A DNA stretch of 64,000 bases from Polytrichum commune (lineage: Eukaryota; Streptophyta; Polytrichopsida; Polytrichales; Polytrichaceae), in NCBI GenBank assembly GCA_950295325.1, contig OX485806.1, forward strand, positions 26,536,001 to 26,600,000, written 5' to 3'. Numbering within the stretch: position 1 is the stretch's first letter; every line of letters begins with the position of its first letter. Shown piece after piece: positions 7,115 through 62,871 of this stretch. The notes under the pieces were generated by a model that had not been told where the DNA came from, made no database searches, and saw only the letters and a program-made list of their open reading frames with translations. Both the position numbers and the translations under genes were made by a program.

Positions 7115-10100
7115 TTAGAGAGTGGACGAGTTCCAACTTGCGTCAACAGCTGCAATAATTTTGCTGTGTAGAGTCTTCCCACAACATGCTATGATTCCAC
7201 GATCCAAGCCTTCAAGAAACCGTCCCTTGGAGAAGTCGAGTGGGCAACCACCTGCATCCGTTACTACCCCACCAGCTTCTTGAACAATAAGTACACCTGC
7301 TGCATGATCCCAAATCTTCTCTTTATATCCTGCCTTAGCAAACTTCATAAAAATTTCTGCATCGCCCCGTGCAATCGCTGCATACTTGGCCATGCTGTAG
7401 ACTCGTAAAGGTTGATTCCTGGCAGACAGGATGATCAATTGTCATAATGATTTTTGCAAGTATTCAGCACCACAGCATAAAGGGGTAAAAACTGATCATC
7501 TGAAATCTACATTAAACAGTCCATGCTGGAGTGAATAAATACCCTTACTAACTGCTGACCAAGAGATTTTAGTAAATAATCTCACTGTATTCTCAATGTT
7601 AATCCTTCAAAGGACCAATGGGCTCAACGTACAACCTATATAATCAATTTCTAAAAGCCTCACCACGTCTCCAAAAAATGTTTTTAATGTTTATGGATTT
7701 GAAACTTTATTATCTCATTAACTTATGTCAAAACTAAATTAAAATATCCACATGTGATATCCACATAAAAATATCAAAATGCCAAGCATGTATCTGCATC
7801 AAGGGCACCCACACTGAGTTTGAACCCAAAGCTTCAATAACTTTAAGGTATTCAAGTCATTTGAAAAGTGCACTTGAAAAATGAGTTGAATTTAGATAGG
7901 GTCACAGTTAACACAATCAGCACAAATTATAAGTATGTAGCTCAAATACACGTTTTGTGTGCATGGAGAGGCCCAGATTAATGGTTCAGATGCTTAGTGG
8001 TTAAGCAGCTATGCTCATAGGAATAAGAGTGCTGCTAATCGTCCAAATCTCCTAAAGGCAAACAACCACATTTTCACAAAATCTTACCTCTGAATTCATA
8101 TAGGACATGTAGATCAATGAGCCTTAGCAGAGGAGAGTTTCTAGCACTAATGATTATCACAGCCCAAATTTCAATCTCTGTGGATAAAAATGGAAGACAT
8201 GTACTTGTATATAGAAATCATGGAGGAAAAGCTAAGATAAAGATCTCCTATGCTTGATGTCAGGGTTTGGGATTTGGCTACCTCAGACCAAGCGTGTCAG
8301 CAAGGCCAGCCGTGAAGGAATGACTGGAATTTCCTTTCTCAACCGGCTCACAGAAAGTTGCATATGCAGGATCAACAATTTTTGACACAGAGACCTTGGA
8401 AGGAGGATGAGGACTGTTGAAAGTTTTGCCATTGAAAATCATAGGTTGCATCCAAGCATGGCCCTCTCCCTTTTGGGCAGTCAGGACACAACCTCTGTGC
8501 CACATGCTGGGGTCTGGTGGTGAGAGCTTCATAGCCATTCGATAATACCTGCATAAAGAATCATCAGTAAGGTAAGCGGGCCTCATTTGGTTACTAATTT
8601 GTCCTCTTAATTAAACACCTATATTTGAGCAATGTGTTGGTTAGGTGTGGATCTAAGAGCGGACACCAAAAAACGTCATGTCTTTGTAAGAGATTGACTA
8701 AGTGCTCAAAACTACACTAAATATGATATTTAGTGTCACCAATTCTAATTGTCTTGCTCAATACTACTTGTGAACCGTGGTGTCGTGTCACCAACACTAA
8801 ATGTTAACCCCACATTATTCGTCATTCCTTGTAAATTTTTTAAGGAATTATAGATTTACAGTGTTGCAATTACTGTCACTTACCAACTGAATTTCCATCC
8901 AAATCTCAATCACCCCTGACAATATTTCATCACAAGTTGCTGACAAGAGAAGGTAGGGTTTTGGCCAATGGATGAACTCATCCACCATCCATGACAATAT
9001 TTGTTCACTTATTCATAAGTAGTGTCATCCAAAGAGTTACCATAGTGACATAAAATACCATATGACACTAAATACCATATTTAGTGTAAGTTCACATTCT
9101 AGCTTAAGAGTGAACATGATTGGGGGGACGTATGAGGAAAAAGTCTATGGCCTGGAGTTGGACTCCCTGATCGTCTCGTCCCAATCGTATGTTTAGTATT
9201 ATAAGAGAAGTGGGTGCAGAGATGATAGAGTCCATTTTAGGCCCACTTACCTTACCATTCAAAGCCCGGTGATAACCAAGATGGAAAACCATATTAAACG
9301 TTATATTGACTCTTGAGATTAGAGGTATCTACTATTGATATTTGCAACTTCACAACTAAACAGTTAACAATACCAACATTTTTATGTGAAGTTTTCTATG
9401 TGGAAGATATCAATATTGGTTGGTTATTTGAAACTTTTGAGACAAGTGAATAACTATAATCCATACCGCATGATAACTGGGTTGATAACCAGCATGGTCT
9501 GTATAACCAGCCAGCACCAGCAAAGACATAGCACGCACACTGGATGAGAAATCATTAGATTGGAAGTATATAACTTACTTGTGATGGTAACCTAGCCAGG
9601 CAGTCCGCATTGGGAAATTTGGGCATCCAAGAACTCCAAGCACCACTTCTCCATCATCTACCAAAGCAAGTGCAACCGCATACTGATCACCTCGAACAAA
9701 GCCAAGTGTGCCATCCACTGGGTCAAGCACCCAGTGTCGCCCTTTCGCCCCACCAAGTGCAGTTCCCTTGTTGATCAGTTTGAGAACTTCATAGGAGCCA
9801 AGAGGTTGCTTTGGGGGCGCTATACCCACCACGGATGACTCAAATAAGCATTCGTTTACAGCATTCACTACCCTTTGCGACATAGCAATGCCATTTTCAC
9901 CTCTCAAGCCCTTTGTATCTTCTTCGGCTACCAACGAGATCTCTTCCCCTTGAAACGATTGAGAAAGAACCCAGCTCACAACTGCCTGCACACCCCAATC
10001 TGCCCGCCCCAAGTGTCAGTGTTTTGAGTTCCAACACCTCTTGTTTGCCTTGTTGTCATTTATGTATCAAGATCAAAAATCTCTCAAGTCCAATAATACA

Positions 10101-13506: not shown

Positions 13507-14013
13507 GGGGCGGTTTACACTATGGACCATGAAGTCGTCCCACGTAAGAGGTCTATTTTGCGTGGGACGACTTCATGGGACGACTTCCATGGTCCGAGTT
13601 ACTAAAATATTAGTTTTCATGGTTCATGGGCCCTTCACTAGGTGTAAACCGAATGTGGACCATGAAGAATGACCATGCGGCAAGAAGTGGATGTGCTGAT
13701 TTTTTTAATATAAGCCCAAAAAGGGCAGTTTTGGGGGAAAATGAAGTTTGAGCATTTTGTTGACTTCAATTTGCCTTCACTTGCCTACACATGCCTTCAC
13801 TTATCTTGTCAATTAGTTTTTTCTTCTTTTCACCTTAAAGTTTGATCATTCTCTTGTCATCTCTCGGGCTTCAACTGTCTTCACTTTTTGTTAAATGTGT
13901 CGAAGATGTGGCTTGCAAATCTTCTCACAACAATTTTTACAAAAAAAAAATGAGCGATGCAATTGTACATGTTCAATGTAATTTACATGTGACATGTACC
14001 TTGTGTTTCACTA

Positions 14014-22469: not shown

Positions 22470-23978
22470 TTAGCCTTCAACTTGAGCATGGATGGCGGGC
22501 TCAAATGCCCAATTTCCGAGGTGATGTGTTTTTGACTTCTCATTTTCAAGCTTCATCGAGGTAATGTTACTCCATCTTCCCAACCTCACATTGAAAAACA
22601 TGACCATGCATTGGTTGGGGGAAGCGACCCACAAGTTCCCCGTTCCCGACACGCAATTTAGGTGCAATGGCAATTCATACGGGTACAAGTTCCGAGGGTA
22701 GTTCATGTGGAAGTAGTGGTTGGGCATGGGTCTCCCATGCTTCACAAATTTTTGTGCTTGAATGCCATCGTCTCCTTGGAAGGTAACGAGTTTGTGGACT
22801 TGGATGAAAGCTCGTGTGCCTTCGAAGCACCGGGCCACGCCAAAGAGATCGTTGTCGCACACCATAATTGTTGGTGGGTCAGATCGCATTAGTGGTGGAT
22901 CTGACGGCACAGAGGGTGGGAGAGGTTGATCTGGGATCCATGGGTGCAGATTCCATTGTAATGTACGAAGGTTGTATGATACTATGGCATATTTCAACTC
23001 AAGGGGTTTCTCTGGATCCGGTGCGTGCTCCCCCACCGTATAAAGAGTCACACTGTTGTGGACTTTGTCTTTAACCAATGGAAGTATCTTGTCATAGTCT
23101 TGTTTGAATGGTGGCTGACCAATGGACTGCACAAGCCGACAAGGCTTGTGATGCTCGAACCATGATTTCTCACTCGAGATGTAATATACAAGGCGAAGCT
23201 CCAACTCGTTCATGGGCACGTCAGTGCGGCGATACCAACCCATGAGGTGAATGGTGTAGTTGTCTGAACATCTAGAGACGCTCATGTGGGCTGATATGAA
23301 CCGGAGGGTAACACTAACTGGGGGTAAAAAAACATGTTGCCGAGTGATTGGATTACATATTATGAGGAGGTGTTGAGGGGGGTTTGCATGTGATAATTGG
23401 GGGTGATTCCACGGTGGTGTGTGGAACGTACAAGTGTGTTGTGGTTTGGGTTTTGCATTGCCGTAGAGTAGTAGTAAACCTCCTTCTCCTCCAAGCATCC
23501 CAACGATGTCAATTGGGAGGTAACATAAGTCGGGAAACCGAATCCACTTCATTCGTTTTTGGTGGAACGCGTAGAAAGAGTTATGCCCACCCGGTTCTAC
23601 GGTGAAAGCCGTTGGGCAATACTCCTTGTTGTGTTGGAGTGAATGTTTCAAGCGAGGGTTTTTATATGCAACCATTAACCTTTCCCGAAAATACTTAGGC
23701 GGCCAACCCACAGCGAATAACTTTGCCATGGGAAGGTTAGACAAGATCAAATCTCGGACTTTATTTTTTGTGGTCTTTCCAAATGGGAAACGTGTGCCTT
23801 GCCACCATTGCTCAATATCCTCTATTGGAAACTTGTATAAGCTACTCATACATTCGGGTGGACAACTATACTTGGTCTTCTCTTTTTTTTGCGAAACTTC
23901 AACATGAACGGGTGCTAAGCCCCAAGCTCCAAACTTATTATTTGCAAGAAGTTTATCATAAGGTTGGAGTTTGAATTT
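22470..23978 (-). CDS. F-box/kelch-like protein, intronless frame of about 500 codons
   Basis: Seen: a long uninterrupted minus-strand frame ending at 22470. Around residue 75 it reads DLILSNLPMAKLFAVGW followed by FRERLM, which matches the second half of an F-box ('..ILS.LP...LF....VC..WR..L'). Later motifs are typical of F-box proteins with kelch-like C-terminal regions: YAFHQKRMKWIRFPDL, VGMLGGEGGLLLLYG, LLIICNPITRQHVFLPP and NLWVASPNQC. Family knowledge: such proteins are substrate adaptors of SCF ubiquitin ligases. Start: an in-frame stop lies about 18 bases upstream of 23981 and no ATG follows it before residue 45. The true N-terminus is therefore either supplied by an upstream exon (an acceptor-like aaatag is at about 23992) or begins at an internal Met. 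The first half of the F-box is weak. It may be one of a large lineage-specific family. Confidence 0.65.
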   Translation of the reverse strand, partial: KFKLQPYDKLLANNKFGAWGLAPVHVEVSQKKEKTKYSCPPECMSSLYKFPIEDIEQWWQGTRFPFGKTTKNKVRDLILSNLPMAKLFAVGWPPKYFRERLMVAYKNPRLKHSLQHNKEYCPTAFTVEPGGHNSFYAFHQKRMKWIRFPDLCYLPIDIVGMLGGEGGLLLLYGNAKPKPQHTCTFHTPPWNHPQLSHANPPQHLLIICNPITRQHVFLPPVSVTLRFISAHMSVSRCSDNYTIHLMGWYRRTDVPMNELELRLVYYISSEKSWFEHHKPCRLVQSIGQPPFKQDYDKILPLVKDKVHNSVTLYTVGEHAPDPEKPLELKYAIVSYNLRTLQWNLHPWIPDQPLPPSVPSDPPLMRSDPPTIMVCDNDLFGVARCFEGTRAFIQVHKLVTFQGDDGIQAQKFVKHGRPMPNHYFHMNYPRNLYPYELPLHLNCVSGTGNLWVASPNQCMVMFFNVRLGRWSNITSMKLENEKSKTHHLGNWAFEPAIHAQVEG

Positions 23979-24405
23979 CACCTCTATTTGAAGTGTTCAA
24001 CATAATCAAGTTTCCATTAGGTTTCCGTTTTTGTTATTTGTCATCATGATTTATGGATTGATTCATGATGTAAGTTGACAATGACAAGTTTTCTCACAAA
24101 CTATCAACTTATCATGTAAGCAAGAATGAGTTGTATCCATAACGCAACTTAATTAGCTATTGTTGCATGTCAAACATATAGTTAATTGCTATCTAGATGC
24201 ACGTAAAGTATAATTTCTAGGTTGCAAGGCATGTCTACCCCACCTATTCAAGTCAAATTTTATAAGCCATCCTTTCTATGGGGGCATGATTTTACATGAT
24301 CCAAATCAATGATGTACACAAAACGATGAACATCCAGTTGGGATTTTTACATGTTGTTTAACATAATTTGGTAGTATGCATTGCAATTATGTTGTTGCTA
24401 AAGAA

Positions 24406-31001: not shown

Positions 31002-31707
31002 GGGTCACTTCTCACACGAGCCAAGAGCTGTGACCATGAAATTGCGAGAGCCCAAATTAAAGAAAGTGTCCAAAGACCGTCCCAAGACACCTCCAAAATC
31101 ATGTAAAATGGTCACGCACCCTCGGGTGTATTGTGAAATCATATGTGATTGGACCCTCAACAAAACACTATTCCAATGAATTTCTATTCATGTGGGTCCT
31201 CTTACATGATAAAACAGAATAAATCAATGCTTGTGAGCGTTCAAAGTGCCATGATCTCCCGGTTCCGTGTTAGGCCTACCTCCAAGTGACCGTGAAACAT
31301 GATCCATTCAATGCCATGTAAGAATCCATGTAGACTCTACATCCATCTTGCATTCACATACTCCGTTGGTCCCTCAAGCGTAGAGTGAAGTGAACTTGGA
31401 CCGGCTGCGCCTTTTCCACCAATGAGAGTGCTTGAAGTGTAATGGTCACGGGCTCTCTGTCTCGTGTGTGAAGTCGCCATGATCTCCCGGTTCTGTGTTA
31501 GGCCTACCTCCAAGTGACCGTGAAACATGATCCATTCAATGCCATGTAAGAATCCATGTAGACTCTACATCCATCTTGCATTCACATACTCCGTTGGTCC
31601 CTCAAGCGTAGAGTGAAGGGAACTTGGACCGGCTGCGCCTTTTCCACCAATGAGAGTGCTTGAAGTGTAATGGTCACGGGCTCTCAGTCTCGTGTGTGAA
31701 GCGGCCC
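31002..31707 (-). mobile_element. Tourist-like MITE, family T1, copy 2, with internal 228-bp tandem duplication
   Basis: Inverted ends (GGGTCACTTCTCACACGAG and CGTGTGTGAAGCGGCCC), with TTA on both sides (30999-31001 and 31708-31710). The segment starting gccatgatctcccggttc is present twice in tandem, at 31248-31475 and 31476-31703, with only a few base differences. This explains why the element is longer than its 499-bp relatives. The element ends within tens of bases of the pyrimidine-rich leader upstream of OTC. Confidence 0.9.
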
Positions 31708-33975: not shown

Positions 33976-34425
33976 TATGTGGGGTTATGCTGATGTCTGC
34001 TCTCACCAGTCTGATGTAATTCAAGTGGAAATATGACGAAAACCCGGGTTGATTTGCCAACACATGTTCGGACTATCGTTACATCATTCACAATGTGCAA
34101 TTTTTGTAATCTCCTCGTAGAGAAATTGTTTGAACATCCTGTGCTTGCAGGGAGGAGTTGCTGGAAGGAAATTGCTACTACCACCTGTAAGCCATTCTAT
34201 GTTGTGTTCTATGTGGGGTTCTGCTGATGTTTGCTTTCATCAGTTTGATGTAAATTAAGTGGAAATATGACAAAATTGGGTTTGATTGGCCTTCCACCAA
34301 CACTTGTTACATCGATGCACAATTTGCAGTTCTGAAATAAACCTTTGCAGAGAAGTTGGTTTTAACAATCTGTGCATTGTAGGGAGGAGGAGTTGCTGAA
34401 AGGGGATTGCCACTACCACGTGAGT
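33976..34425 (+). repeat. Tandem duplication carrying a leader exon with splice sites, about 220-230-bp units
   Basis: Unit 1 (about 33976-34208) and unit 2 (about 34209-34425) share 'gtggggtt.tgctgatgt', 'aagtggaaatatgac', 'gttacatc' and the exon-like block 'ggaggagttgctg.aagg.attgc.actaccac'. In unit 1 this block (34151-34186) lies between an acceptor (gcttgcag) and a donor (cct|gtaagc). In unit 2 it starts after ttgtag at 34383 and runs on into the OTC start codon at 34442. The duplication has therefore created a possible alternative or additional 36-base leader exon. Confidence 0.6.
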
Positions 34426-34441
34426 GTTGAAGACAGACGTC

Positions 34442-38586
<4,145 letters not shown>

Positions 38587-47396: not shown

Positions 47397-50095
47397 ATGA
47401 CAAGCAAAGCGAGCGTGAAGTTTGCGGAGGGTAATGTGAAGCTGGCAACAAGAGCTTCCGATGAGGAGGAGCTTGAGTCAAATGGCGGATCATCGTGTCC
47501 GTTGGATCAAGAGATGGAGGATCCGATGGAGGATGAGATACCGTGGCATCCTTTAATGGGGGATTTTCCGGGCGTGATTACTTGTCATTTGTTGCTTGGA
47601 CTTATCAACGACGCCATAACCATGTTGCGGTATCAATGTCGCAAACTAAACTCATTTTGCTCTTTTGATTATATATTCGTTGTTTGATGGAATTGTATGT
47701 TGTAAGTTGGTGTCGACTCATGTTTGTAAAGATGATCTCTAACTCTCTCAAGCATGTTCACCTCCCATCCGCGAGTTATATGTGTGTGTGAGACACCAAT
47801 GGTGGAGATATTAGAGTTATTTTTCTTGTACTCAACATGCCTTTGGTAGTTTTCGGTGCATGCTTGGAGGTAGCATGGAGATTTGAATGAAGAAATGTTA
47901 TTTTATATTGGTTCAGTGAGGGTCAAACTCATTTTGGCATGCTCAAAAGCGTTCAAATGAGTCTGACCCTCAACGAACTGAAATAGGTTGTTCTTCATTA
48001 AAATTCAGTTTGGCAATGCTTAGAAGTGATCAAAGAAAGAGTTCGGCTCTCACCAACCTAAAATAGCTTGTTTCTCATTAAAATTCAATGTGGCATGCCT
48101 AGAGATGCTAGAAGTGAGTTTGACCATTTGACCATTTGACCATTTTGGTCATGCCATAAATTTTAGAAAGTTGGCAACTTTTCCCATAATATGTTTTATG
48201 GTTGACAAATGAGCTACTCCCAAAATTTTAGAAGTTTTTGAGTAAATTTAGATGAAGTCCATCACCCTCAAAGTTGGAGGGTCACATGAGGTCATTTTGG
48301 GGGGATTTCTCTTTTTCATGTAGCAAGCAATATGTGCACTAATTGTTTTCCAAATCCATCCGGTCAAGTTGTGCACAACTGTCTCCTTGTCCTGTGGGAA
48401 AAACCCCACCCAAATTGGGCATCATATATGAAAGATTTTGGCTCCTAGATAGGGACAGTTCATGGGAGCACCTTCCAAAACAAGCAAATATCAATCTCAC
48501 AAAAAATTCATGCATGCTTGGAGCATGAGAATTCTTTACATGTTATTTTGGTTAGCATGGTAGTGGGCAACACCCTACACGAGTAGATACCTTCCATCCA
48601 CGTAGATTGCCACTTGATGGGTCACAAACCCCATTAGAATATGAGATGGCGACCCATTTCGGATTGCATGAGTCCTTAGGGGTTAAAGAGTAACTCGATT
48701 GCCTTCTCTTTCTCTCTCAAAGTCTCTAACTTAGCTCCACCCCATATGTCTCACTCTATACCAACAATTGGAACGTTTAGTCTCATTCAAACTTGCTTTG
48801 GAACCCATCTAAGTAAAAACACCAAGCTAGCTAGTCCCATGGACTCAAAATGTTGCACTTTCATAGCAAAAGAATCTTAACAAAGAACTTCGTTAAGAAT
48901 TGGTCATGCCACTGTAAGAAAAGAAAAAGAAAAACCAACGTCAGGCAATCTGACATGAATTTGAGCCCGTTCACCCTACCCTGCTCAAGAATCCTCTTGA
49001 TGTAGGGTGGGGTTTACTGCGTACCTTGCGGAGTGCAGTTGTCATATACCTGGAAGTGCATGTGCTATAAACCCAACTGCAAGTCGTGGAAGTCGAAGTT
49101 AAAAGCATTTTGAAAGTTCCATGATGAGTCTTCCAACAACCTTATGTGTCTCGTTCACCGAGTCGAATATCAAGATTTAGGGTTTTGTCACCTAGAATGT
49201 GAAGCTCTAAGACTCATTGGGACTCTTTATAAATTTCATCAGGACGCTAGGATTCGTCACCGAGGATTTGCTTCATTGTGAGGATCCCGATCCAAGGGAC
49301 GGTGCAGCGGATAACGAACCTATTTATCGCCGGCTCGACAAATTAAAAGACAAACTCGATAAGGTACTAATTTGATGTTGTGCCTACACGGTAGTCGTGT
49401 GTTATTTGGATACTTTTTTTCTCTCTTCTTCACTCACTTCTCGTAGGATATTAAACATGCAATTAGTGCGAGATGATTGGCAAATCCAAATCAGGCCCGT
49501 GGTCATTTGTCTCATAGTTTTTGGAGCTCATATGAATATCTTGTTCATACTCAAAGTGAAGATTCTCATGCTCATTAATCAATCATATAGGTCCCTGCCC
49601 CCCCCTCCCCCTCCAATCATATTGACTATTGAGTGTAGAATGGTTAGCATATTCTGAGCACTTATCTATCTATCTATCTATCTACTCCCTCCGTTTCAAA
49701 ATAAAAGCTACGTTTGGACGTAAACTGCATTACGAAACAAAAGTTAGATGTGGTGAAATTTCTCTCAAACTTCGCCAAACGAACTGGAATGTTGTCAAAA
49801 TCAATGTAAATGTTGTTGCTGATGAACTACCAAGTCAAATAACAATTTACACTTGTTTAACAATTGATATTTGGACTCGATGGCGTCGACGCACATCAAT
49901 GCGGTTTTATGTGTGAGATCAATCGGTGTCAATCGTCAATGGCGATGAACGGGTGTTACTATGGACACCCCTAGCTCGCCAGAAAGCGCTCAGTGAGAGC
50001 TATGCGATGCACGCAACTTCGTGCTTAAAGTGCGAAAAATGACCTTAAGCCCACGGATTTTCTAAAACGTAACTTTTAATATGAAACGGAGGGAG

Positions 50096-50130
<35 letters not shown>

Positions 50131-53100
50131 TTGGGTGTCTGTGCTTAGATCCGCATCTTACCACATACCACTCAAATACATTATGTGTCTAAATTATTGC
50201 TACGTTGAATTTAGGCACGCCTACCCTATATGCCTCACCAAAGATTTTCTTGGCCAAGTGTCTCACTTGATGATGATGCAAGGGCCTAGGGAGTTCACTA
50301 CCTATAGGGTTCATTAAGCATATTCACTAAAGGAGTACTTTATGGGGGTTATAATATAGTAGCAAAATATTCCACCAATTTAGATGATATAATGGAAATA
50401 TTCTAGTATTGTCATTTTCTTTTCTTTTCTTGAAACACCGTAAGTTACTTAACACCTTCTTCATCAAATTGATGGCTAATTTTTATATATATATATTATT
50501 TTGATCATATATACCGCCAATAAATTGAATAGACCTTATAATTGATCATTGATGACCTCCCCTAGTGCTAGGGAAAGTTGATATGATTGTAAATTACAAA
50601 ACCTTCCATGTTAAAATATAGCATCCCAAAATTTTATTGGAGAATATAAATAAATAAATACATAGGTACCCAACAATGTGACAAAGAAATTTGTAAGTAA
50701 CATAGGTTGTTCTATAAAAATTAAATCTAATGGTCATTATTAAAATAATTCCATTCTATCCTTTGAATTGCTAAAACAATCTTAGAATATTTTACTATAT
50801 TATAGCCCCCCATAATATGTCCTTAACACATACGGTTAGTGAGCCCCTATAGGTTGTGAAATCCCCAGGTGATGATGAATATGTTAAGAGTGTATGTTTC
50901 AAGAGGAGGTGTTGCTTACTGCACCTCGAACCATAGACATGCCTTTGCAACTCATCGGTGGTCAACTAAGTCTAGAAATCACAAATTTGGCCACCTCTCC
51001 TTTGACAATGTAGCTGAACCCCCCTAGGTTTGTAATTATGTATATATAATTTTGATAGAATTTAGGTAATAAAAAATAACATTTGTGCAAATTGTACATT
51101 GACGTGAAAGGGAGCCTGTTCTTCCTTACACTCATCATGTTTTTGCGAAGCTTCAAGATAGAGTTACTTCCTTTCATTTTAATGTGGTTATGATATATTT
51201 GGTACGACAATTTTGGGTAAGGAGGGCAGGAGCTATTGGAGAGGTTGAAATACCATGCTGACCGGAGAAAACAATGGAAGGAGGCTATAGATGATGTTGA
51301 AGAGTTTGAAAAGGCGACCAAGAAGCTGACGACATCCGCGTGGTCGCTATGTTGCTACTTCATTGTGAGGAGTCTCACCCAAGCAATTATGCCAAGGTTC
51401 TTGAACACGAACCTCTTTGTCAAAGCAATGCAATTTCGTAGTGATACCGTAAGAGAAATTTAATCTAATTTTGGGTGATTAATACGATGAGTTCTTTTTA
51501 TATAACATCACTACAAGCATATTACAAGTCCTGGGTGATTGACTTGCATTAGTGGAAATTCTGCAGATCTACTACAATAGTACTAGATTGGCATATTTCG
51601 TCCAGTGACGCATGATGATTGCCGATCGAGGATTCATGTGCTAGAGTTAGTGAATTGATGCTTTAGTGTAATTATAATGAATTAATGTAACGTCCATTGT
51701 TTAACACAAAAGGATCAAACTCAAAATCAAGTTCAAGAAAATGTGGTGGAAACACCACTCTAGATGCATTATTTTTTCATCCAAAAATGACGTACAATGC
51801 ACATGCTACACAAACTTGTTCACACAAGAGATGGATTTCACATCCATCACTAGTTTTTGCCATTTGAAAACTAGTGTTTGCGTACAATTTCAAAATGTCA
51901 TTTTTTTCCTTTTCTTTTTTGCTTGCATAAGTTTAGATTTTCTTTGAACATGGTTTGTACTTGAATACATGGGTATATATTTGAGATAAAGTTGTATTGG
52001 TTGTTGGTTTTAGGCGAATGAATATGCAAGGGATCAACTAGAGCAACTACAAATTCAACAACCTCCTAGTTTTCTATACATGTGTGAAGGTCTAACGAAG
52101 GTAACTCTTAGACAAGAGAAATGCCCTTTACACTAAGTTTTTGAACAACGTCCGTGAATTCAAAATGACCTAGATAAAGACATCTAGATAACTAGACTTG
52201 GGTTATTCTTCACCCTCCTCAAAAGTGACATAACTTGTATTTAAGAACATTGGACCAAGGCACAATCGACGACCATACCCCTTGATGCAATGACCATCGA
52301 AAAAGGTCAATTTGGAAGATCTTATCACGTCAAAGAGTTCAAAATCTGAAAACATGTCCAACTTTACTTAAACATGAATTTCATCAAGCATGACGTTTAG
52401 TATTATTAGTACTATTAATAGTATTAATAGTATTACGTTTATTATCATTACAATAAAAATTTTTGTGGGTCCTTCTAGTTGATGTTTGTGTTCAACCACA
52501 TGAATGTTTCAACCACATTTCACTGATGTCTATGGGCCATCATTTTAGATGCGAACTGTGGCATTGAGGAGATTCTCTACTTCATTAGAAGAGGAAAAAG
52601 CAATTGAAGATTACCGAATGCATTGCTTTTGGCGTGAAGAACAAGTGAGAGCACCTTCTCACATAATATTTAGACAACATTAGTTGATGTCAAGTGCATG
52701 GAGGCTCTTCACACTTCCGTTGTGTGCTTAAAAATAGGGGAGACAACCTTCCGGAAACGACATTATAGTATTATCCTCACCACGAAGCTCCATAAAACCA
52801 TGATGCGTGTAACATGAGAATGGTCTCCCATTCATGTTGGTGAACGAGACACCGGTGCTTATTTTTTTTTATAGTAACTCATTCATGCTTGAAAAGTTTG
52901 CATGAGGATGTATAAATCTCAATTAGGACTAAGTGAGAGGGTGAATGTGAAACTTTGCAGGCCAAGAAAATGGAGGAGGCGGTGGCTAGAGATCTCAAGG
53001 ATGACCAACAAAAACGCGCAGATGATCACGCCCAATACCTCAAGAATGAGCGCCTCATTCAACGTAGATATTTTTGTCCACAGTGCTACACTCTAACCTC

Positions 53101-56100
53101 CCCAATAGCACACCTGTGGCAACCAAAGTGCACATGATATCAAGGAGGTCTGCAATGTTCACATGGATGCGTGATAATAGAGAATCAGTGTAGTGTGTGA
53201 CAATTTGAGACAACACTACGTCAATAATACAATAATGACAACGTGATGTGTGCGAGCATGTGGTTTGAGTTATTTGGTGGGTAGTTTTGATGTCGAAACC
53301 CATGTTCTATGGGAGCTAGGGATACACAATAACAAGGAGGGAAATTTAGACTGAGCACATCCGGTCCCTAGGGTTTCAAGATATGAGAGAGGAAGTGACG
53401 TTATAGAGGGTGACATTATGGAGGCGAGGGAGTAAATGTTTTCAAGTAGATGTGATGAAACTTATGAGTTTCAAAACACATCAACAACGGATGCCACATT
53501 CGGTTTTGATTTACAGATCGGTCGTCATTTAGATATATGCGTCATCATATTATCGACCCCTAAATGCCTGAGGGTTTTGAGCAATCTCAAAACCTAGTAT
53601 GAAAACATTCCTCTCTCTATAGAAGAGAACGCTTCCCAAGCCACGTACATGGCTCCGGGGACTGATTTGTAGTTTGAAACTAATCAATCCGTAGGAATAC
53701 GTAAGACTAGTTAACTAGTTCGAAACTTGTCAATCGAAACAAGTGCAAACCTGAAGATCATCCAATGCACGCTGCTAGTTGACGTACACTATAGGAAAAT
53801 TAGTTGACACTAGAGGGAATTAGTTAACCTTCGTGTTGGCTTTGTCTTGCATACTTTTTTTCTCGAGGTTTGTGTTGATTCCAATGTGGGAATTGGGTGA
53901 CTTTGTGGAAATTGCAGAGGAGAAGGAAAACTCGGTGATCCTCGCGAAGCAAATGGACGAGCAACTGAAAATCGATTGTGCCATATTGGAAGGTCAAGAA
54001 ATCGCCGTTTTTGATGCTGAGGTGAGCATTCTTGCACTTGATGACATTAAAGAAAGTTACCCCGTGCCCGCCCTCCCTAATAACCACACAACTATGGGTA
54101 GATGGTGGTGAATGGACATTGCACGTCAATGTCTAAACACTGAAGTTTTTTCTTTTTCTTGTGATAAGGCGACTTTTAAAGTCGTTTTCTTGTCTGTTCT
54201 TTGTTGTGACATCAACACTGTACGTGAATAGTTGGACGAAGTCATGGATGAAAGACCTCAAGTCTTGAGTATATGCTAGTAGGAAAGGAAAGGGGGGGGG
54301 GGGGCATGTGAAATGACAAGGAGCTGAGTGTAGAAAATTGCAAGTGATTGCATTGTTGAAGTTCTAAGGGAGTCTAGCTAGTAAGGAGCTCCTCGACATT
54401 CTATGAGATTTTGGAGACAAAACTAGGTCACTTGTTGTCTCGAGACCACGCTTGCCATAGTCTCTATGTTTGTGCCAACGCCAACCAACCTTTGGCGTCG
54501 ATTGCCTGATTGTGAGGCCATTTCCAAGGGTGGTTCACGGCAATCTAGGCTTTTGGTCATTTGTAGCTCTTGAATTTGGATGATAGGTTCATCCCTTAAA
54601 GAAATTGAGGTGTTGGAGTTTCATCATGTTCTCACAACCAAGTCCTATCACTAGGGAGGGAGGGTTTTACAAATAGCAATGTCCTTCCAAGAGGGACAAA
54701 ACTCAAAGTTTGAGCCTCTTTTGAGTCCATTTTACAAACAACTTCATTGTATGGAAAGGAAGGACATAACATCACTCAACAAGGTCGGCCTATTCATGTT
54801 TATAGGGAACATTTATTGAAATGAATTGAAATATTCTTGCACAAATCTCAAACTACATCTTGAAAGTTCAAGGTACCTCAAAATGAAATGCTCACGTGTA
54901 TAGAATGTTTGGGGGGTTCAAGGGAAGACCCAATGATGAGCATTATCGATTAATATAGCACTACAATGTTTGGAGAGGTTGTACCAAAACTAGAAAGATG
55001 GTGAATAAAGATATGTTAACAATTCTATGATGTACATGCTCCAAAGGCCAAACATGTGAAACCTATAACGAAATTATCATAAAAACATATCATGAAAAAC
55101 TGCAAAATCCCATGACATGAAATCTTACATAGCCATGCACAATAGCTCCAACATATTTTGGTTTGGAAGGATTTGTATAGATCCACTCTAAGTGCATTAG
55201 AAGCCTTTCTAAGGACTAGTATGGTATATGAAGAAGTCGGACTAGTACAAGAAGGCTATGTCTGGGCAATGACTAAACTATTGGCATGGATCTTTCTTTT
55301 GAAGGATAGAACAACGTTTTGTCTCTCGAGAACAACAAAATGGATGAGGCACTTCTCGAATTACAGGTTCTTGTTTTGGCAATTTCTTCTTCAATCAAGT
55401 TGGTAACACATAATCACTTCTATTGATGACATATTGACTCAACAGAGCCCACCTCCCGAAAGGTAGGAAGTACGCCTACCCTGACACCTGGTAAAACGGG
55501 ATCAAGGTCAGGAAATACGAGCTCTCATTCACGTCGATGCAAATCAAAAACACCTATGTTATATTTATTTTGATTTTATTATGACATCAACTTTACGTGC
55601 ATTCATGACACGTATAGAGTTCCACAAGTTCTTGGAATCCTAATTGACTAACTGAATTGAGTCACGTTGAAGAGATTTCACAGATTCGGAACTAAATTTT
55701 GATTTTAAATTGCGGACTTCTGATTGTTGCAAATTGATGAGTTTCAGAATAAGCATCGAGATAAGGAGCTACAAATGCGAGGTAAAAAAGGGCAAAGCAT
55801 TGAAGAAGTTGAAGACTTGCTTTGGGAGTATGAGGATGACATCACCACCCGAACACAAAAACTTAATGAACTCATTGTAAGGCCATTTTCATAACATTAC
55901 TCACAAGTTCGCACTTGCACCGTGTGGTTTTGAATAAAAAGGGGCATAAGGCCGCTTTTATGTTGGGGTTTCCTTACAAATTGAGCAGTTTCGGAGTTTG
56001 AATTTTGTTCATCCTCACAAAATTTTGAGCTTGGATTGCATTGGCAATTACTGAGTCATGTTAGCAATTGCGAGACATAAAGATGATCATTTCAAGGTTA

Positions 56101-59100
56101 AGGATCATAGTTGAGATGCAAACATTATAAGAGGTCAAAGTGAAGATTCTCTTTCTTTCTAAGTGATCACGTAGGTCCTGTTGTGGAAATGAAATGCAGT
56201 TGTTTTCAAAGTCCAAGAAGTTCAAAGCCTTATGCAACTTAAAGTCTACAAAGTTGTCTAATTCCCTAAAGTAGTGGAGTGCACTATCCTTTGTGAGATA
56301 GAGGTTGTGTGGGATTTGGAGAGAGGGAACTTGAGACTCCCTAGCTAGAGAAGAGGCGCTCATAATTGACCACTTAAGAGATTTTGTGCCAAATATGGAG
56401 AAGTATAAGGTGGTGCAAATTTATCATGTGTAGGAAGATAGAATTCAAGAGGACTGCAATGTTTTTTTTTTGGTAATTTTTATCCTTAAATTGAGATTAT
56501 TGTTGATTTTTTAAGCCAAAGTTTGGCTCGAACACATTACTCATGTCTAGAGTTTGCCATAATCGTGCATTTTGAGACGAATTCCTCGTCACCTTAGCAC
56601 TCAAAACTAGGGACATGTGTCATGATATTATCAATTCCTTGGTGATACCATAATTGAAGTTGGAGACTTAAGGTTAGTTTCCATGTAGGCCGCTTCGCCC
56701 ACCAAATTCTAGTGGAAGTGCAAATTCCACCTAGTGGCATCTACTAGAATTTGATGGGTGAAGCGGTTTACATGGAAACTAACCCTTAGAAACCGTGAAA
56801 TGTGGAACCTTATTTTAATAGTCCACAAAAAACAATTACAAAAATCAGTCCTAGCATGATCAAAATTATGGCACCCTATAAATTCCCAATGGTCACTTGA
56901 TCAGGATAGGTGGTCCAACTCTACTACTACATTCTCCAATAGGGAAGGGAGCTTATCTATACTAGAGTTGTAGAGGAGAGACTATCCAATAATAGTTGTG
57001 TTAATTATTGAACCTAGAATGATTACTGAAATTCGGGCATGCACTTTGATCTTATCATAACATACGTCTTTTGGTGTCCATGTTTAGTTACATTCTTGCC
57101 ATATACCGTTCAAATTCAGGTGTTTGATTAAGGGTCAGGGCTACACACCCACCTCTTTGAGTTGGGCCCATTATACTGGCGTCTAGCCCTAGCCCCAATT
57201 AGGAAGAGTGACCACATTATAAGGTCCACATAGTCACCTTATAAGTTAAATGCCTTAAAAAGCTTAGATAAATCAAGAACCATTGAGCCACTCATACTCT
57301 TGCTCATAGCCTCATACGTACACCACAAATAGATTATTCTCGACAAGTGTGTGGGGAGATTTTTGGGTATAGCCGGTTGAGATCCTAGTGTTTCCAAGCC
57401 CAAGCGGTCACATGTTGATATCTTTGGATTTCCTTTATGAATGGGAGGTATATTCAATAGATTCCTCTAAAAGGATGGGTAGTTCAATGAACTTCAACTG
57501 GTTATTGCTCAAACTCAACTGCTTCATTTGTAACTAACAGCCGGTTCTCCCCGTTCGTTGAAATGAAATGAGACTGATTTTAAAGTCCGGGAAATCAGAA
57601 AGGCTAATGGGGCTTATAGTACATTAGGATGGTTCCAAACCTGCTAATTCTCTAGGGTGATAGAGTGCATTAGCTTCTTGTGAGATAAAGGCTAATGTCA
57701 ACTCGATGGTTTAATTGAAAGAAATACTCGAGGGTCCTTGAAACTACGTTCTCAATTGGTGATCATGAAGACTTATCTCTAATGGGGTTATGTAAGGGAC
57801 ATTCCAACACAAAATGTGCCTCATTTAAATTGTATTATAAAAGGAAAAGTGGCATAGTCTAATGGTATCATTGATAGTCATTGATATTTCATTCAACCAT
57901 CAAGTTGAACATGTCGCACCCACAGACCAATTTTGAGTTGCTACAATAGGAATTAGAGTTATCCTTTAATTCAACCGGAGTTCTGGTTGGGAGTTGGTTA
58001 ATTTGCATACAAAGCTTTCCATGTTCAGTAAGTCTTCAGTGTATGATTTGAGTTAGCATGGGACTTTGAAAGAAGACCATTCTATATCGGCTCATTGGGG
58101 GCCAAACTCATTTTTAGCACCTCTTGGCATGCCGAACTGAATTTTGACCCTCAATGTACCAATATAGAGAGTTTCGGACCACAACTTCACTTGATTTGAA
58201 GGATAACGTTGTTATTCTTACCTTGAAGTTTGGTAAAACATGATCAATCTAATCGGAGCGGTCTCCCATTCATTGTCAACATTGCTTTTATATTTCATAT
58301 ATTGATGGGTCATAAAGTCAAACGTGAAACCTAACCGATTCATGTATTGCCTACATATTTGGGTAGGAAGAGCATAGAGTGGTTGATGCGCACTTGGAAA
58401 TGATGCATGCATACTTCGTCGAGAAAGCACGTCTGGTACAACTCTAGCCTCTACTTAATTCGAGCGATTATGTTTACATGCATACTCTCTTATACTACAC
58501 TAATTGCAACTCACGGCGAGAAAAATGTATTCATAAATAAGTTTGGCTATCAACTGGAGATTTATGGTTTCATTTTTTGGACAATCGATTATCAAACGCT
58601 TTAAATCAACAACCATGATGATGAAGTTATGCGTTTCCTTGTCATGACACTAGTCGAAAACTATGCCCCAAAAAATCGCAGCTGAAATCATCTGTGGTTC
58701 TTCGACCAACCTGATCTACAGTCACTAAACGACTACAGATTCGTCTTTTTCATTCCGCGACCGCCGCAGTTCCAGGACCTTTCCAACGGCACATTACACG
58801 CCCCCAAATTCTTAAAAAAATTCCAGTCGCTAAACCAAAAAAACAAATCTGCTGTCATTTAGCGACTACATATCAAGTTGGTCAAAAGAACCGTAGCCGA
58901 TTTCAGCTACGGCTATTATTGGCCTAGCTCTCTACCAGTGTGAGTTGCAATGGACAAGTTGCAACAAATGACTGTAATCAACAAGTTTTCATGAAGCGAA
59001 GTGTTTACTTTCCCTTTATGCTTTTCCTGTTGCGACACACCAATTTGAATGCCACACTAAATCAGATGTTTATGAGGAACGGTTGAAACCCTAAACCCAA

Positions 59101-61020
59101 AACCCTAAACCATGGCTGCAAGACTCTCTACTAACTCTGAGCTTGTAATTTGTATGGACAGGCTGCCATTAGAGCCGAGGAACTGAGGGTATATCAAGAA
59201 GCAGCTGTGGTATGTTTTCATTACATTCTTCACAAGTGCATTTTTGTGCTTTGTAGTTTAAATGGAATATACCAAGAGGCCAGTGTGTGTGTGTGTGTGG
59301 TTTTTTTTTGTTTTTTAAAATTAATTTTTGTTTTTTAATTTTTTTTAATTTTTAATAAATGTTTTTAGTGGCCATAGTCGGTCAAAATTCTGGTGTTGTC
59401 CAAGTCCAACTGGTTACGTAGTGTGATCATTATGGTTTTTCCATCATAGACGATTTGAGGTATATTCTGTAGATTCCTCTTAAATTGATCCATAGTTCTC
59501 CTGATGCCTTGAATCTCAACCGGTTCATCTGTAACTAGCAGTCGGTTCTCCATGTTTATCGTAAGAGACTGAATGAAAAGGGAAGAAGTTCTGGTTGAAT
59601 TTGTTGTGTCATGCGGTAAGTTAGTGAGGGTATGGCAAAATGAGGAATGTCATCATTTGATGATGAATAAGATATTCATGTGAGCTCTAAAAATCATGAG
59701 AAAAGTGGCTATGACCTCAATTAGGATTTGCTAATAACCACCTCATAGGAATCATGTGTTTCATATGCAAGGAGAATGGGCTATTTGGTGGGGGGGGGGG
59801 GGGGGAAACAACCATCTAAGATCCATCTACCCTTATATATATAAGAAGGATGAATAGGTCTCTCACAATGAAATGAGAATGAAATTGATTTCAAAGTCCC
59901 GGAAGCCAAAAGGTTGAGGGAATTGAAAGTACATCAAGATGGTTTCAATTCCCTAGAGTGGCGGAGTGTGGTAGCCTCCGTGAGATAGAGGCTAATGTCA
60001 ACTTGATGGTCCAATCGAAAGAAAGACTTGACAATGACAAGATGTGACATCCTTTCTTGGTGGCTGATTAGGAATGGTGAAGTTAGTATTTTTTGGGCTG
60101 CCTGAAGGGGTAGGGAGTTACTAAAATATGGTTAACATCCCGGTCAATTTCAACTGTATTTGCCTAATTGACAAAGGCACCACTTTATACTAGAGCTTGA
60201 GGACCCTCTTGACCCATGATATATAAATTATGTGATTGGTCGAGAATCTGGATATGGTCCAAGTTCACATTACACTAGACCTTGAAGGCACGAGGGACCA
60301 AAGAAGCTCAAACGGATGAAAATCTTGTATGGCGTCTTACATGGCAGCAAGTGGACAGTGTTTCATTATCTACCAGATATTGCTTAAGGTCCAGCAAAAA
60401 GAGGTGGGTCTAATGAAAAACTAGGGGCCGTGGGCATTCATTTAAATTGCCATTGGGGGTCCTAGAAATATCATATTGTCATGGTGGAGATCCAAACCTG
60501 AACATATGTTAGTGCCTCTCCACATTTTTGCTTTACACTAAGCTTGAGAGCCCATCAATTGCAAAGTTGGATTTCTATATCCCACAGTACGGCCTTTGGA
60601 TGATTTTTGAGGGCCCTCAAATTTTCATGGTCACAACTCTTGGCCCGGTGTAAAGCGACCCTAAGTGTCCACTAGTTAAATCTAGACTGGATTTGTACAA
60701 ACCAAAGACTACACTAATTACCCTACATAATGTGTGTTACTATTCAAAGTTACGCAGTGCTATATCTATTTAATGAGAACGTAATATTCTACCAAACAAA
60801 TGTCATTTATGTTCTTCAATCTCTAGACAACTTATTAAACTTTTGTTAGTAGAAATTGAAATCCTGAGTAAGACGTTATTGCATTGCATTGCATAACCCC
60901 GAACAATAACATGCACTATTTGGGATAATTAGTGTAACATCAATCAACCTCCAGAGAAAGATAGCATGCTCTTATTTTAATTCATTATTTTTTCCTTCTG
61001 CAAAATAAAAAATAAAGAAC

Positions 61021-61051
<31 letters not shown>

Positions 61052-62871
61052 ACCCCTAGCCATGTGACAACCTTGAGGATGTGGAATTTGTTATGATAGG
61101 CCAAAAGGAGGGCCAAATGGCTGCCTCACGTGTCGGCTAAGCGCATCCAAAGCTATTGGAAACGATACTTGGAACGAAGGAGACTTGCACTAGAGCAAGC
61201 CAAGAAGGTGAGATCATTGGAGCAAAGAGGCTCTTTAGTAGTTATGCTTGCTTCTTCACGGTGCTACAATTTTTTGGGTCTAATTAGTGTGGATTAGTAG
61301 TTGGAGTTACGCATTGTTGTAACATGTTAGGTCGAGAGAATCATCTTATACCCAAACAACATGAGTACACTAAATATGACATTTAGTGTCACCAATTCTA
61401 ATGGCCTTGCTCAATACAAATTGTAAATCGTGGCGTAGTGTCACCAACACTAGATGTTGAGCCCACGTTATTTGTATTTCCTTGTAATGTTTGGGGGGCA
61501 TTATAGATTTTCAGTGTTGCAATTATTTGTTACTTACCAACTGGTTTTTCATCCAAATCTCAATCATCCATGACAACGTTTCATCACAAGTTGCTCACAA
61601 AGAGTAGTAGGTAGGGTTTTGGCCAATGGATGAACTCATCAATCATCCATGATAAAAGATTGTTCACTTACTCATAAGAAATGTCATATGAAAAGTCACC
61701 ATAGTGACATAAATTACCATATGACACTTGATTTCACATTTAGTGTAGTTAGTATGCACACCGAAGAATATGAATTAACTTAGTTGGTAAAAAATGATAA
61801 TGACGGTTAGAAATTCATAGCCACATGTAACTCGGAATGGTAACCTGCACTAATTAGACAAGATTGTGTAGCGTATCTATCTATCTATCTATCTATTTAT
61901 CTATCTATGTTGATCATCGGATCGATGCTTTCTAATGAAACTTGTGTTAAATAAGAGATCCATTTGCGTTGTAATGTTGGAAGATTTTTTTGAAATTTTT
62001 TTGTGTGTGTGTATATACCATGTGTTTCTTTTGTTTATATATAAGTCTATATTGAAGTATAAGGAAAGTGCGCTTCACGAGCGCATTTTGGTTTGTAAGA
62101 GTCATGGAGACAAGGGAAACTCCCTCCTAGTTCATGAAAATCTAGTCATGATGTCCCACAAATGGCGGGATGTCCCTTGCAAAAACCGTAAGGCCTTGTG
62201 TGAGGGTGGACATTGATTATTAGTGCCCAAAGAGGGCCCTCAAAAAACTAAATAAATAAGATTGGTGGGTTTCAAGCATAACATAATTCAGATCCATAAC
62301 AATGTTATGTGGGATTGACAGTGTTTCCCAAAATATTAATATCCGGGAATATTCCATGGAATACTGTCAGTCCCACATGACATTGTTCTGAATCTGAATT
62401 ATGTTATGAATGAATGCATAGATTCTTCCATTATACCTAATCCAATTTTTTTTAGTAATCCCTCCGTCCTAAAATGATTGTCCTAGATCCCGGATTTTTT
62501 TTGTCCCAAAATTATTGTCTAGTTTATCTGCCCGGCTGAAAATTTGAGGCTCAAAGTCAAATATTTTTGCATCAAACTTCCTAAATCAAGGAGTGTTTTG
62601 GCTCCACAACTTCCAGCGGCGTTTCGGAGTAATTGTTTTTTTTCTATTTTAAGGGTCATACTGACAACTATTGAGTCAATGGTCAGCGGGCCTTAATCTC
62701 GCCAAAGTTAGGAACACGGACAATCATTTTGGGATAAAGGGAGTACCAATTTGTAGTTGTAGACACTAAATTGATGCTCGCTTTATTTTGTAGGACAAGA
62801 AGGCTGGGAGGAAGCCAAAGAAAAAGGAAGGGCCCAAGAAAAAGAAAGTGGACTGGATTGAAAAGAAATGA
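47397..62871 (+). CDS. IQ-motif coiled-coil axonemal protein, nexin-dynein regulatory complex subunit DRC9/DRC10-like, 11 exons, 441 aa
   Basis: Exons: 47397-47629, 49243-49363, 51230-51448, 52014-52100, 52549-52644, 52961-53063, 53918-54021, 55748-55876, 59162-59209, 61100-61207 and 62794-62871. Every intron is GT-AG and every phase fits, giving one 441-residue frame. Seen: an N-terminal acidic region, a helical region (LLGLINDAITMLR into TLGFVTEDLL), long charged coiled coil (residues about 105-380), the segment EEVEDLLWEYEDDITTRT near 340, an IQ motif at 395-406 (RIQSYWKRYLER) and a lysine-rich tail (KKAGRKPKKKEGPKKKK). Family knowledge: DRC9/IQCG and DRC10/IQCD are about 440-450 aa, coiled coil, with a C-terminal IQ motif and Lys-rich end, and sit in the nexin link of motile cilia. 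I cannot choose between the two. The gene implies flagellated sperm. Introns reach 3.3 kb and hold two Stowaways, a CACTAAAT MITE, foldbacks and repeats A, B and C. Exon 9 (16 codons) and exon 4 (29 codons) are the least certain. Confidence 0.85.
47890..48115. repeat. Foldback-type repeat in intron 1 of the axonemal gene
   Basis: The sequence 'ggttcagtgagggtcaaact' is followed by its inverted form 'gagtctgaccctcaacgaactg' after about 30 bases. The pattern then repeats partly ('cattaaaattcagtttggca', 'cattaaaattcaatgtggca'). A related hairpin is at 58070-58180. Noncoding. Confidence 0.55.
49430..50330 (+). repeat. Repeat A copy split by a TCTA microsatellite and a Stowaway MITE
   Basis: The left half (49430-49660) ends 'gaatggttagcatattctga' and the right half (50125-50330) resumes with 'tttttgggtgtct' and 'taccacataccactcaaata'. 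An uninterrupted relative at 37000-37160 shows that the two halves belong together. Confidence 0.6.
49685..50095 (+). mobile_element. Stowaway MITE (411 bp) inside a TCTA microsatellite
   Basis: The left terminus CTCCCTCCGTTTCAAAATAA and its inverted right counterpart (ending ATGAAACGGAGGGAG) are the classic plant Stowaway ends. TA duplications flank it (49683-49684 and 50096-50097). Before it lie about five TCTA units and after it about seven, so the target TA was within one tetranucleotide array. Located in intron 2 of the axonemal gene. The internal frame of 95 codons is not a gene. Confidence 0.92.
53130..53440 (+). repeat. Interspersed repeat B, copy 2
   Basis: Same ordered blocks as 5370-5650, here in intron 6 of the axonemal gene. 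'catccggtccctagggtttc' is the best conserved block. Confidence 0.55.
56673..56787. mobile_element. Short foldback MITE with TTA flanks (about 110 bp)
   Basis: The left arm 'ggttagtttccatgtaggcc' (continuing gcttcgcccaccaaattcta) is the reverse complement of the right arm ending 'tttacatggaaactaaccct', with few mismatches over about 40 bases. TTA flanks both sides. It lies in intron 8 of the axonemal gene. Confidence 0.75.
57240..57560 (-). repeat. Interspersed repeat C, copy 3
   Basis: Minus strand reads CDRLGLETLGSQPAIPKNLP, matching copy 1, preceded by the less conserved half. Intron 8 of the axonemal gene. Confidence 0.55.
58677..58912. mobile_element. Foldback MITE, family F3 (about 236 bp)
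   Basis: The left end 'cgcagctgaaatc..ctgtggttctt.gaccaac' is mirrored by the right end 'gttggtcaaaagaaccgtag' plus 'ccgatttcagctacg'. 'agtcactaaacgactac' near the left end also has its inverted counterpart near the right end. Relative at 14115-14345. Intron 8 of the axonemal gene. Confidence 0.75.
59086..59112. repeat. Telomere-like CCCTAAA motif pair
   Basis: The sequence 'gaaaccctaaacccaaaa' followed by 'ccctaaacc' holds two plant-type telomere units plus a degenerate one. It lies 50 bases upstream of exon 9 of the axonemal gene. It may be chance, a telo-box or a short interstitial telomere insertion. Confidence 0.5.
59360..59580 (-). repeat. Interspersed repeat C, copy 4
   Basis: Best-preserved frame of this family: 62 open codons on the minus strand beginning MENRLLVTDEPVEIQGIRRT and ending ILTDYGH. 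Lies in intron 9 of the axonemal gene, antisense to it. Confidence 0.6.
60240..60661 (+). mobile_element. Tourist-like MITE, family T1, diverged copy 4
   Basis: Blocks shared in order with copies 1-3: 'ggtccaagttcacattacac', 'tgaaggcacgagggacca', 'tcttacatggca', 'ggcctttgga' and the right end 'tggtcacaactcttggccc..gtgtaaagcgaccc', followed by TAA. The left end is not clear. Intron 9 of the axonemal gene. Confidence 0.55.
61265..61873 (+). mobile_element. Inverted-repeat element family F2, copy 2, interrupted by a CACTAAAT MITE
   Basis: The left half (61265-61365) and right half (61746-61873) match the continuous element at 40620-40862. The outer ends are 'ctacaattttttgggtctaa' and 'attagacaagattgtgtag'. 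Intron 10 of the axonemal gene. Confidence 0.7.
61368..61745 (+). mobile_element. CACTAAAT MITE, copy B (378 bp)
   Basis: Same palindromic ends and body as copy A. TA flanks at 61366-61367 and 61746-61747. The related empty site in the F2 element at 40.7 kb has a single TA, which confirms a 2-bp target duplication. Confidence 0.9.
61879..61907. repeat. TCTA microsatellite
   Basis: About seven TCTA units with one TTTA variant, in intron 10 of the axonemal gene, directly after the F2 element. Other simple repeats in the window: TCTA around 49667-49684 and 50098-50128, TA at 61027-61050 and GT at 59284-59299. Confidence 0.8.
62270..62415. mobile_element. Foldback MITE, family F1, copy 2 (about 140 bp)
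   Basis: Ends CATAACATAATTC and GAATTATGTTATG, with 'gatccataacaatgttatgt', 'gggattgaca' and 'tgtcagtcccaca' inside, as in the copy at 29512-29729 but shorter. Intron 10 of the axonemal gene. Confidence 0.75.
62458..62743 (+). mobile_element. Stowaway MITE, second copy (286 bp)
   Basis: The left terminus ATCCCTCCGTCCTAAAATGA and inverted right terminus (ending TTTTGGGATAAAGGGAG) are Stowaway-type ends, with TA at 62456-62457 and 62744-62745. It lies only 50 bases upstream of the acceptor of the last axonemal-gene exon at 62794. It is a different subfamily from the 49.7-kb copy. Confidence 0.88.

Follow-up and report, generated by a model that had tools for sequence, protein, structure and literature searches.

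The gene at positions 47397-62871 (+) of the window, that is, of the whole 64-kb stretch of DNA analysed (C4:26536001-26600000), very probably codes for DRC10 (IQCD), which in the sperm flagellum forms part of the nexin-dynein regulatory complex, as judged from profile comparison with proteins of known structure. This gene, here called locus A, corresponds in its exons to two further loci, B, which lies in tandem with it, and C, on another contig, and the genome thus holds at least three copies rather than the single gene of which an earlier note on this DNA had spoken.

Locus A is a real gene on the plus strand, running from the start ATG at 47397 to a stop whose last base is 62871, with long introns and, in the final model, 13 exons encoding 455 aa, every one of them open and with AG/GT borders. 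Start and stop were seen again when the exons were re-read, and exon translation bore out the earlier description of short exons sharing a single reading frame, but the count of 11 exons and 441 aa was replaced after comparison with the paralogues B and C. The exons, together with two MITE-like elements, are as follows.

47397..47629, +, exon 1: ATG, N-terminal motif LLGLINDAITMLR; present in both B and C
49243..49363, +, exon 2: present in B; not resolved in C
51230..51364, +, exon 3: donor GTGAGG; 84 nt less than in the first model
52014..52100, +, exon 4: from reading by eye and paralogue comparison
52549..52644, +, exon 5: from paralogue comparison; judged by eye, within the stretch most alike to 8glv DRC10
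52961..53063, +, exon 6: from reading by eye and paralogue comparison
53918..54021, +, exon 7: from reading by eye and paralogue comparison
55310..55366, +, exon 8: 57 nt; length and phase shared with B and C; likeness to C weak
55748..55876, +, exon 9: from reading by eye and paralogue comparison
58367..58435, +, exon 10: 69 nt, EEHRVVDAHLEMMHAYFVEKARL; present in B and C; missed by the earlier and the 12-exon models
59162..59209, +, exon 11: from reading by eye and paralogue comparison
61100..61207, +, exon 12: carries the IQ-like motif (roughly 61130-61186)
62794..62871, +, exon 13: stop, preceded by the Lys-rich tail (12 of 25 residues are Lys)
49683..50097, no strand assigned, MITE-like element in intron 2: 33-nt terminal inverted repeats
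62452..62749, no strand assigned, MITE-like element in intron 12: terminal inverted repeats of 39 nt that are 77% complementary

Twelve exons, encoding 460 aa, were read by eye, and dropping 55310-55366 from this set leaves exactly 441 aa, from which we infer that this exon was absent from the earlier 11-exon model, whose exon list was not given. Three mends therefore separate the two models, namely the addition of 55310-55366, the addition of 58367-58435, and the removal of 84 nt of intronic sequence from exon 3. The end of exon 3 was moved from 51448 to 51364 because the corresponding exon of C (132 nt) stops where A has GTGAGG and because a 1-nt indel separates B from A beyond this point. 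Exon 8 has counterparts of identical length and phase in B and C, with a clear score in B (57) and a weak one in C (12). Exon 10 was exposed by the sole collinear A/B blastn piece to lie clear of all exons in the 12-exon set (58373-58448 against 13730-13805 of B). The exon encodes 23 aa in phase 0, and its counterparts, which share length and phase, score 61 (B) and 49 (C), whereas the best rival candidates in those introns reach 9 and -1. A scan of the 11 introns common to A and B, which admitted only YAG acceptors, GTR donors and frame-keeping lengths, revealed no further exon pair scoring above 23; in two of these introns no candidate pair arose. The protein sequences used in the comparisons are identical to the translated exons.

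The N-terminal motif lies in exon 1, the coiled coil was read by eye only, and the IQ-like motif is present, as the earlier note had claimed, with a PF00612 score in A below the cut-off (16.8 versus 20.3 bits); all three paralogues match PF00612 at E<=1, the best at 0.0054. The Lys-rich tail was likewise recovered, with 12 Lys among the last 25 residues. The agreement of 441 aa with the length of DRC9/DRC10 was partly luck. As for the many transposons ascribed to the introns, two sites were checked, in introns 2 and 12, and both proved MITE-like.

Elsewhere in the window, an ornithine carbamoyltransferase gene occupies 34424-37743 (+), in which PF02729 and PF00185 are matched by the open frames 35483-35890 and 37402-37743, and 34424-34900, which has no Pfam match, looks by eye like the first exon. 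A gene of the inositol monophosphatase family with at least two exons lies at 7115-10015 (-), with PF00459 in two open frames; an open frame of 508 aa without a Pfam match is found at 22470-23996 (-), and two 228-bp units with 98% matches stand in tandem at 31244-31701. An Rfam search of the 64-kb window gave no match.

The paralogues were delineated in a genome of 408 Mb in 64 contigs by taking, for each exon of the 12-exon set of A, the best frame-consistent AG..GT exon. B begins at C4:26602405, 19 kb past the start of A, and C, which is more diverged and dispersed, spans C2:7342635-7355701. Acceptable exons were obtained for 11 of the 12 in B, all but the last, and for 11 of the 12 in C, all but exon 2; likeness in C is low at exons 8, 11 and 13 in the final numbering (scores 12, 16 and 20). 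In the final set, lengths equal those of A in 9 of 12 exons of B and in 9 of 12 of C, the differing ones being exons 1, 3 and 12 in B and exons 3, 12 and 13 in C, and phases agree. Exon 2 of C was sought by exon search and not found, and neither exon search nor blastn recovered the last exon of B or a Lys tail there; C has a Lys/Gly tail at the same place as the Lys tail of A. Comparison of A with B by blastn yielded 16 pieces, of which 10 cover exons 1, 2, 3, 4, 6, 7, 8, 9, 10 and 12 and six are not collinear. Judged on these alignments, the exon-by-exon agreement is more than chance.

Differences between A and B fall on codon positions 1, 2 and 3 in the numbers 88, 58 and 148 over 11 exons (exon 3 in its longer form, exon 10 left out), and the NG86 method gave dS 0.92, dN 0.21 and dN/dS 0.23 over 402 codons (with the corrected exon 3, without exon 10). 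Purifying selection on both A and B is indicated by their coding sequences; in the A-C and B-C comparisons, silent sites are saturated. The four-codon last row of the per-exon A/B table is an alignment edge and was not read as an exon. These values bear on the proposal that A is a decaying pseudogene and that C or B is the working DRC10, for which the presence of at least three copies and the long introns, two of them holding MITE-like elements, might speak; given that 13 of 13 exons are open with AG/GT borders and that dN/dS against B is 0.23, we regard this as very improbable.

The assignment of A within the DRC9/DRC10 family, which the earlier note had proposed correctly, was narrowed to DRC10 by a PDB profile search and shuffles. 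When a profile of A, B and C (13 exons) was searched against 177,635 PDB sequences, five matches were obtained, of which the top three are all DRC10 chains: 8glv_Ey (E 1.2e-5, 27.6 bits), 9fqr_Oj (E 0.0075) and 8j07_10 (E 0.17), the last closely followed by two DegQ chains (E 0.19 and 0.52). We take 8glv to be a Chlamydomonas structure and 8j07 a human one. The alignment with 8glv_Ey is collinear, running over profile positions 165-434 of 439 and chain residues 86-355 of 356, and the IQ region and basic tail of this chain lie at the same place as in A. The reversed profile, used as a control, found one unrelated match, a G-patch protein at E 6.3. Without exon 10, the profile had 8glv DRC10 as its sole match (E 0.032), and the addition of this exon raised the best DRC10 score from 16.3 to 27.6 bits.

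Scores were further compared with those of targets, taken as pieces of chains, that had been shuffled with heptad positions kept. With the 13-exon profile, the DRC10 scores of 8glv, 8j07 and 9fqr were reached by 0 of 500 shuffles each and that of 8th8 by 4 of 500; a further DRC10 chain, 9y6s_8I, was not above background (487/500). Among DRC9 targets, from which the DRC9 chain of 8th8 was left out, the corresponding counts were 58/500 for 8j07, 10/500 for 9fqr and 332/500 for the 8glv fragment. The profile without exon 10 gave, per 200 shuffles, 0 for each of 8glv, 8j07 and 9fqr, 1 for 8th8 and 105 for 9y6s on the DRC10 side, and 192 for 8j07, 22 for 9fqr and 93 for the 8glv fragment on the DRC9 side. 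By score, A is thus nearer to DRC10 than to DRC9. That A might instead be DRC9 (IQCG), with which DRC10 pairs and to which it is distantly related, would accord with the same layout seen by eye (N-terminal motif, coiled coil, IQ motif and Lys tail) and with the few shuffles that reach the 9fqr DRC9 score, as expected of a distant homologue. This identity is nevertheless very unlikely, because no DRC9 chain appears at E<=10 in the 13-exon profile search, not even 8j07 chain 9, whose layout by eye is like that of A, while three DRC10 chains stand on top, and because the DRC9 scores of 8j07 and of the 8glv fragment are reached by 58 and 332 of 500 shuffles.

Single sequences carry less of this signal, and the 8glv DRC10 chain, which scores 27.6 bits by profile, is hardly matched by A as a single sequence. 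The 12-exon A alone had no PDB match at E<=10; the 13-exon A alone had 15, with MsbA first (E 0.098), 8glv DRC10 second (E 0.13) and 9fqr DRC10 last (E 8.6). Since coiled coils and IQ motifs yield background matches, and since A by itself fits MsbA no worse than DRC10, one might consider A an unrelated plant protein with a coiled coil and an IQ motif, such as a binder of cortical microtubules. There is very little to commend this, as DRC10 chains top the PDB list and are not found by the reversed profile, and as the 8glv_Ey match is collinear. Similarity above the coiled-coil background is seen for DRC10 by profile, by the reversed-profile control and, for the chains other than 9y6s_8I, by shuffles; for DRC9 it is not seen.

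DRC10 is to be expected in this genome, given its matches to other axonemal proteins and to LEAFY. The dynein heavy chain domain PF03028 has 13 genome matches, 12 over the cut-off, grouped into eight places; DRC4/GAS8 is found in three pieces at one place, over the cut-off, whereas four control genomes gave matches that fell below it; RSP3 has four matches at two places; and PACRG has eight, at sites including C1:29.97-30.12 Mb and C2:45.72 Mb. All four families, dynein heavy chain, DRC4, RSP3 and PACRG, have matches over the cut-off, and on their strength the source organism is one with motile axonemes. The LEAFY domain has four genome matches, on C1 and C7, a family not known outside plants and their algal kin. 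The earlier view that the gene constrains the lineage thus holds in direction, through the axonemal and LEAFY matches, but does not rest on a single gene, as there are at least three copies. PF14772, which we take to represent DRC1/2, had no genome match, and its control was also silent. Neither the 8glv DRC9 piece, in an insensitive search, nor the 8glv DRC10 piece found anything in the genome at E<=10; these blanks say little, since the DRC10 piece also missed A, B and C, which are there. As PACRG and the LEAFY domain, too, are found in more than one place, DRC10 may not be the sole multi-copy gene related to sperm.

According to the part of the Cycas genome paper (PMC9023351) considered here, non-seed land plants all depend on swimming sperm, which cycads and Ginkgo retain among seed plants; Ginkgo has no RSP3, and many flagellar genes have been lost in Gnetum, conifers and angiosperms. 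In that same part, the terms DRC and dynein do not occur. The genome of Cycas measures 10.5 Gb; taken with the 408 Mb and the RSP3 matches found here, these statements favour a bryophyte, lycophyte or fern as the source, a streptophyte alga being less likely. Among the titles and abstract openings listed in a literature search, none announces a survey of land-plant DRC10, although one may exist.

Because A belongs to a known family, its role would be like that of DRC9/10 in Tetrahymena, where, in the portion of PMC10504270 drawn on here, the two proteins form a coiled-coil dimer on DRC1/2, are predicted to bind calmodulin, contact DRC3, DRC7 and CCDC96/113, and may act as a hub that regulates dyneins g and e. 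By analogy, the coiled coil of A would pair with DRC9, and the pair would stand in the linker of the nexin-dynein regulatory complex; its IQ motif would bind calmodulin, and DRC10 may relay signals to the inner-arm dyneins, leading to coordinated bending of the sperm tail. With regard to the expression confined to the male germ line that the earlier note predicted, the motif of DUO1, RRCSGTT in the part of PMC6290024 consulted, occurs once within 2 kb upstream of A, three times upstream of B, where a site at -61 was counted on both strands, and not upstream of C. This count is uninformative when set against the window as background, where 125 overlapping pieces of 2 kb average 0.74 motifs and hold at most 5.

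Most likely, A is an ordinary gene, a member of a known family expected in a plant with swimming sperm. Unlike what is seen for the 8glv DRC10, this plant gene has at least two paralogues, and the modest novelty lies in the three diverged DRC10 genes of one plant. It is conceivable, if rather unlikely, that DRC10 has split into three selected genes whose versions, differing in the presence of the Lys tail and in their first exons, serve in different nexin links, for instance along the axoneme or between the flagella of a single sperm cell. Plant flagellar genes are readily mis-modelled, for two of the 13 exons were overlooked by eye, and one of these, exon 10, supplied a large part of the signal by which the family is recognised. 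With three copies to compare, it can be asked whether plant nexin links are uniform.
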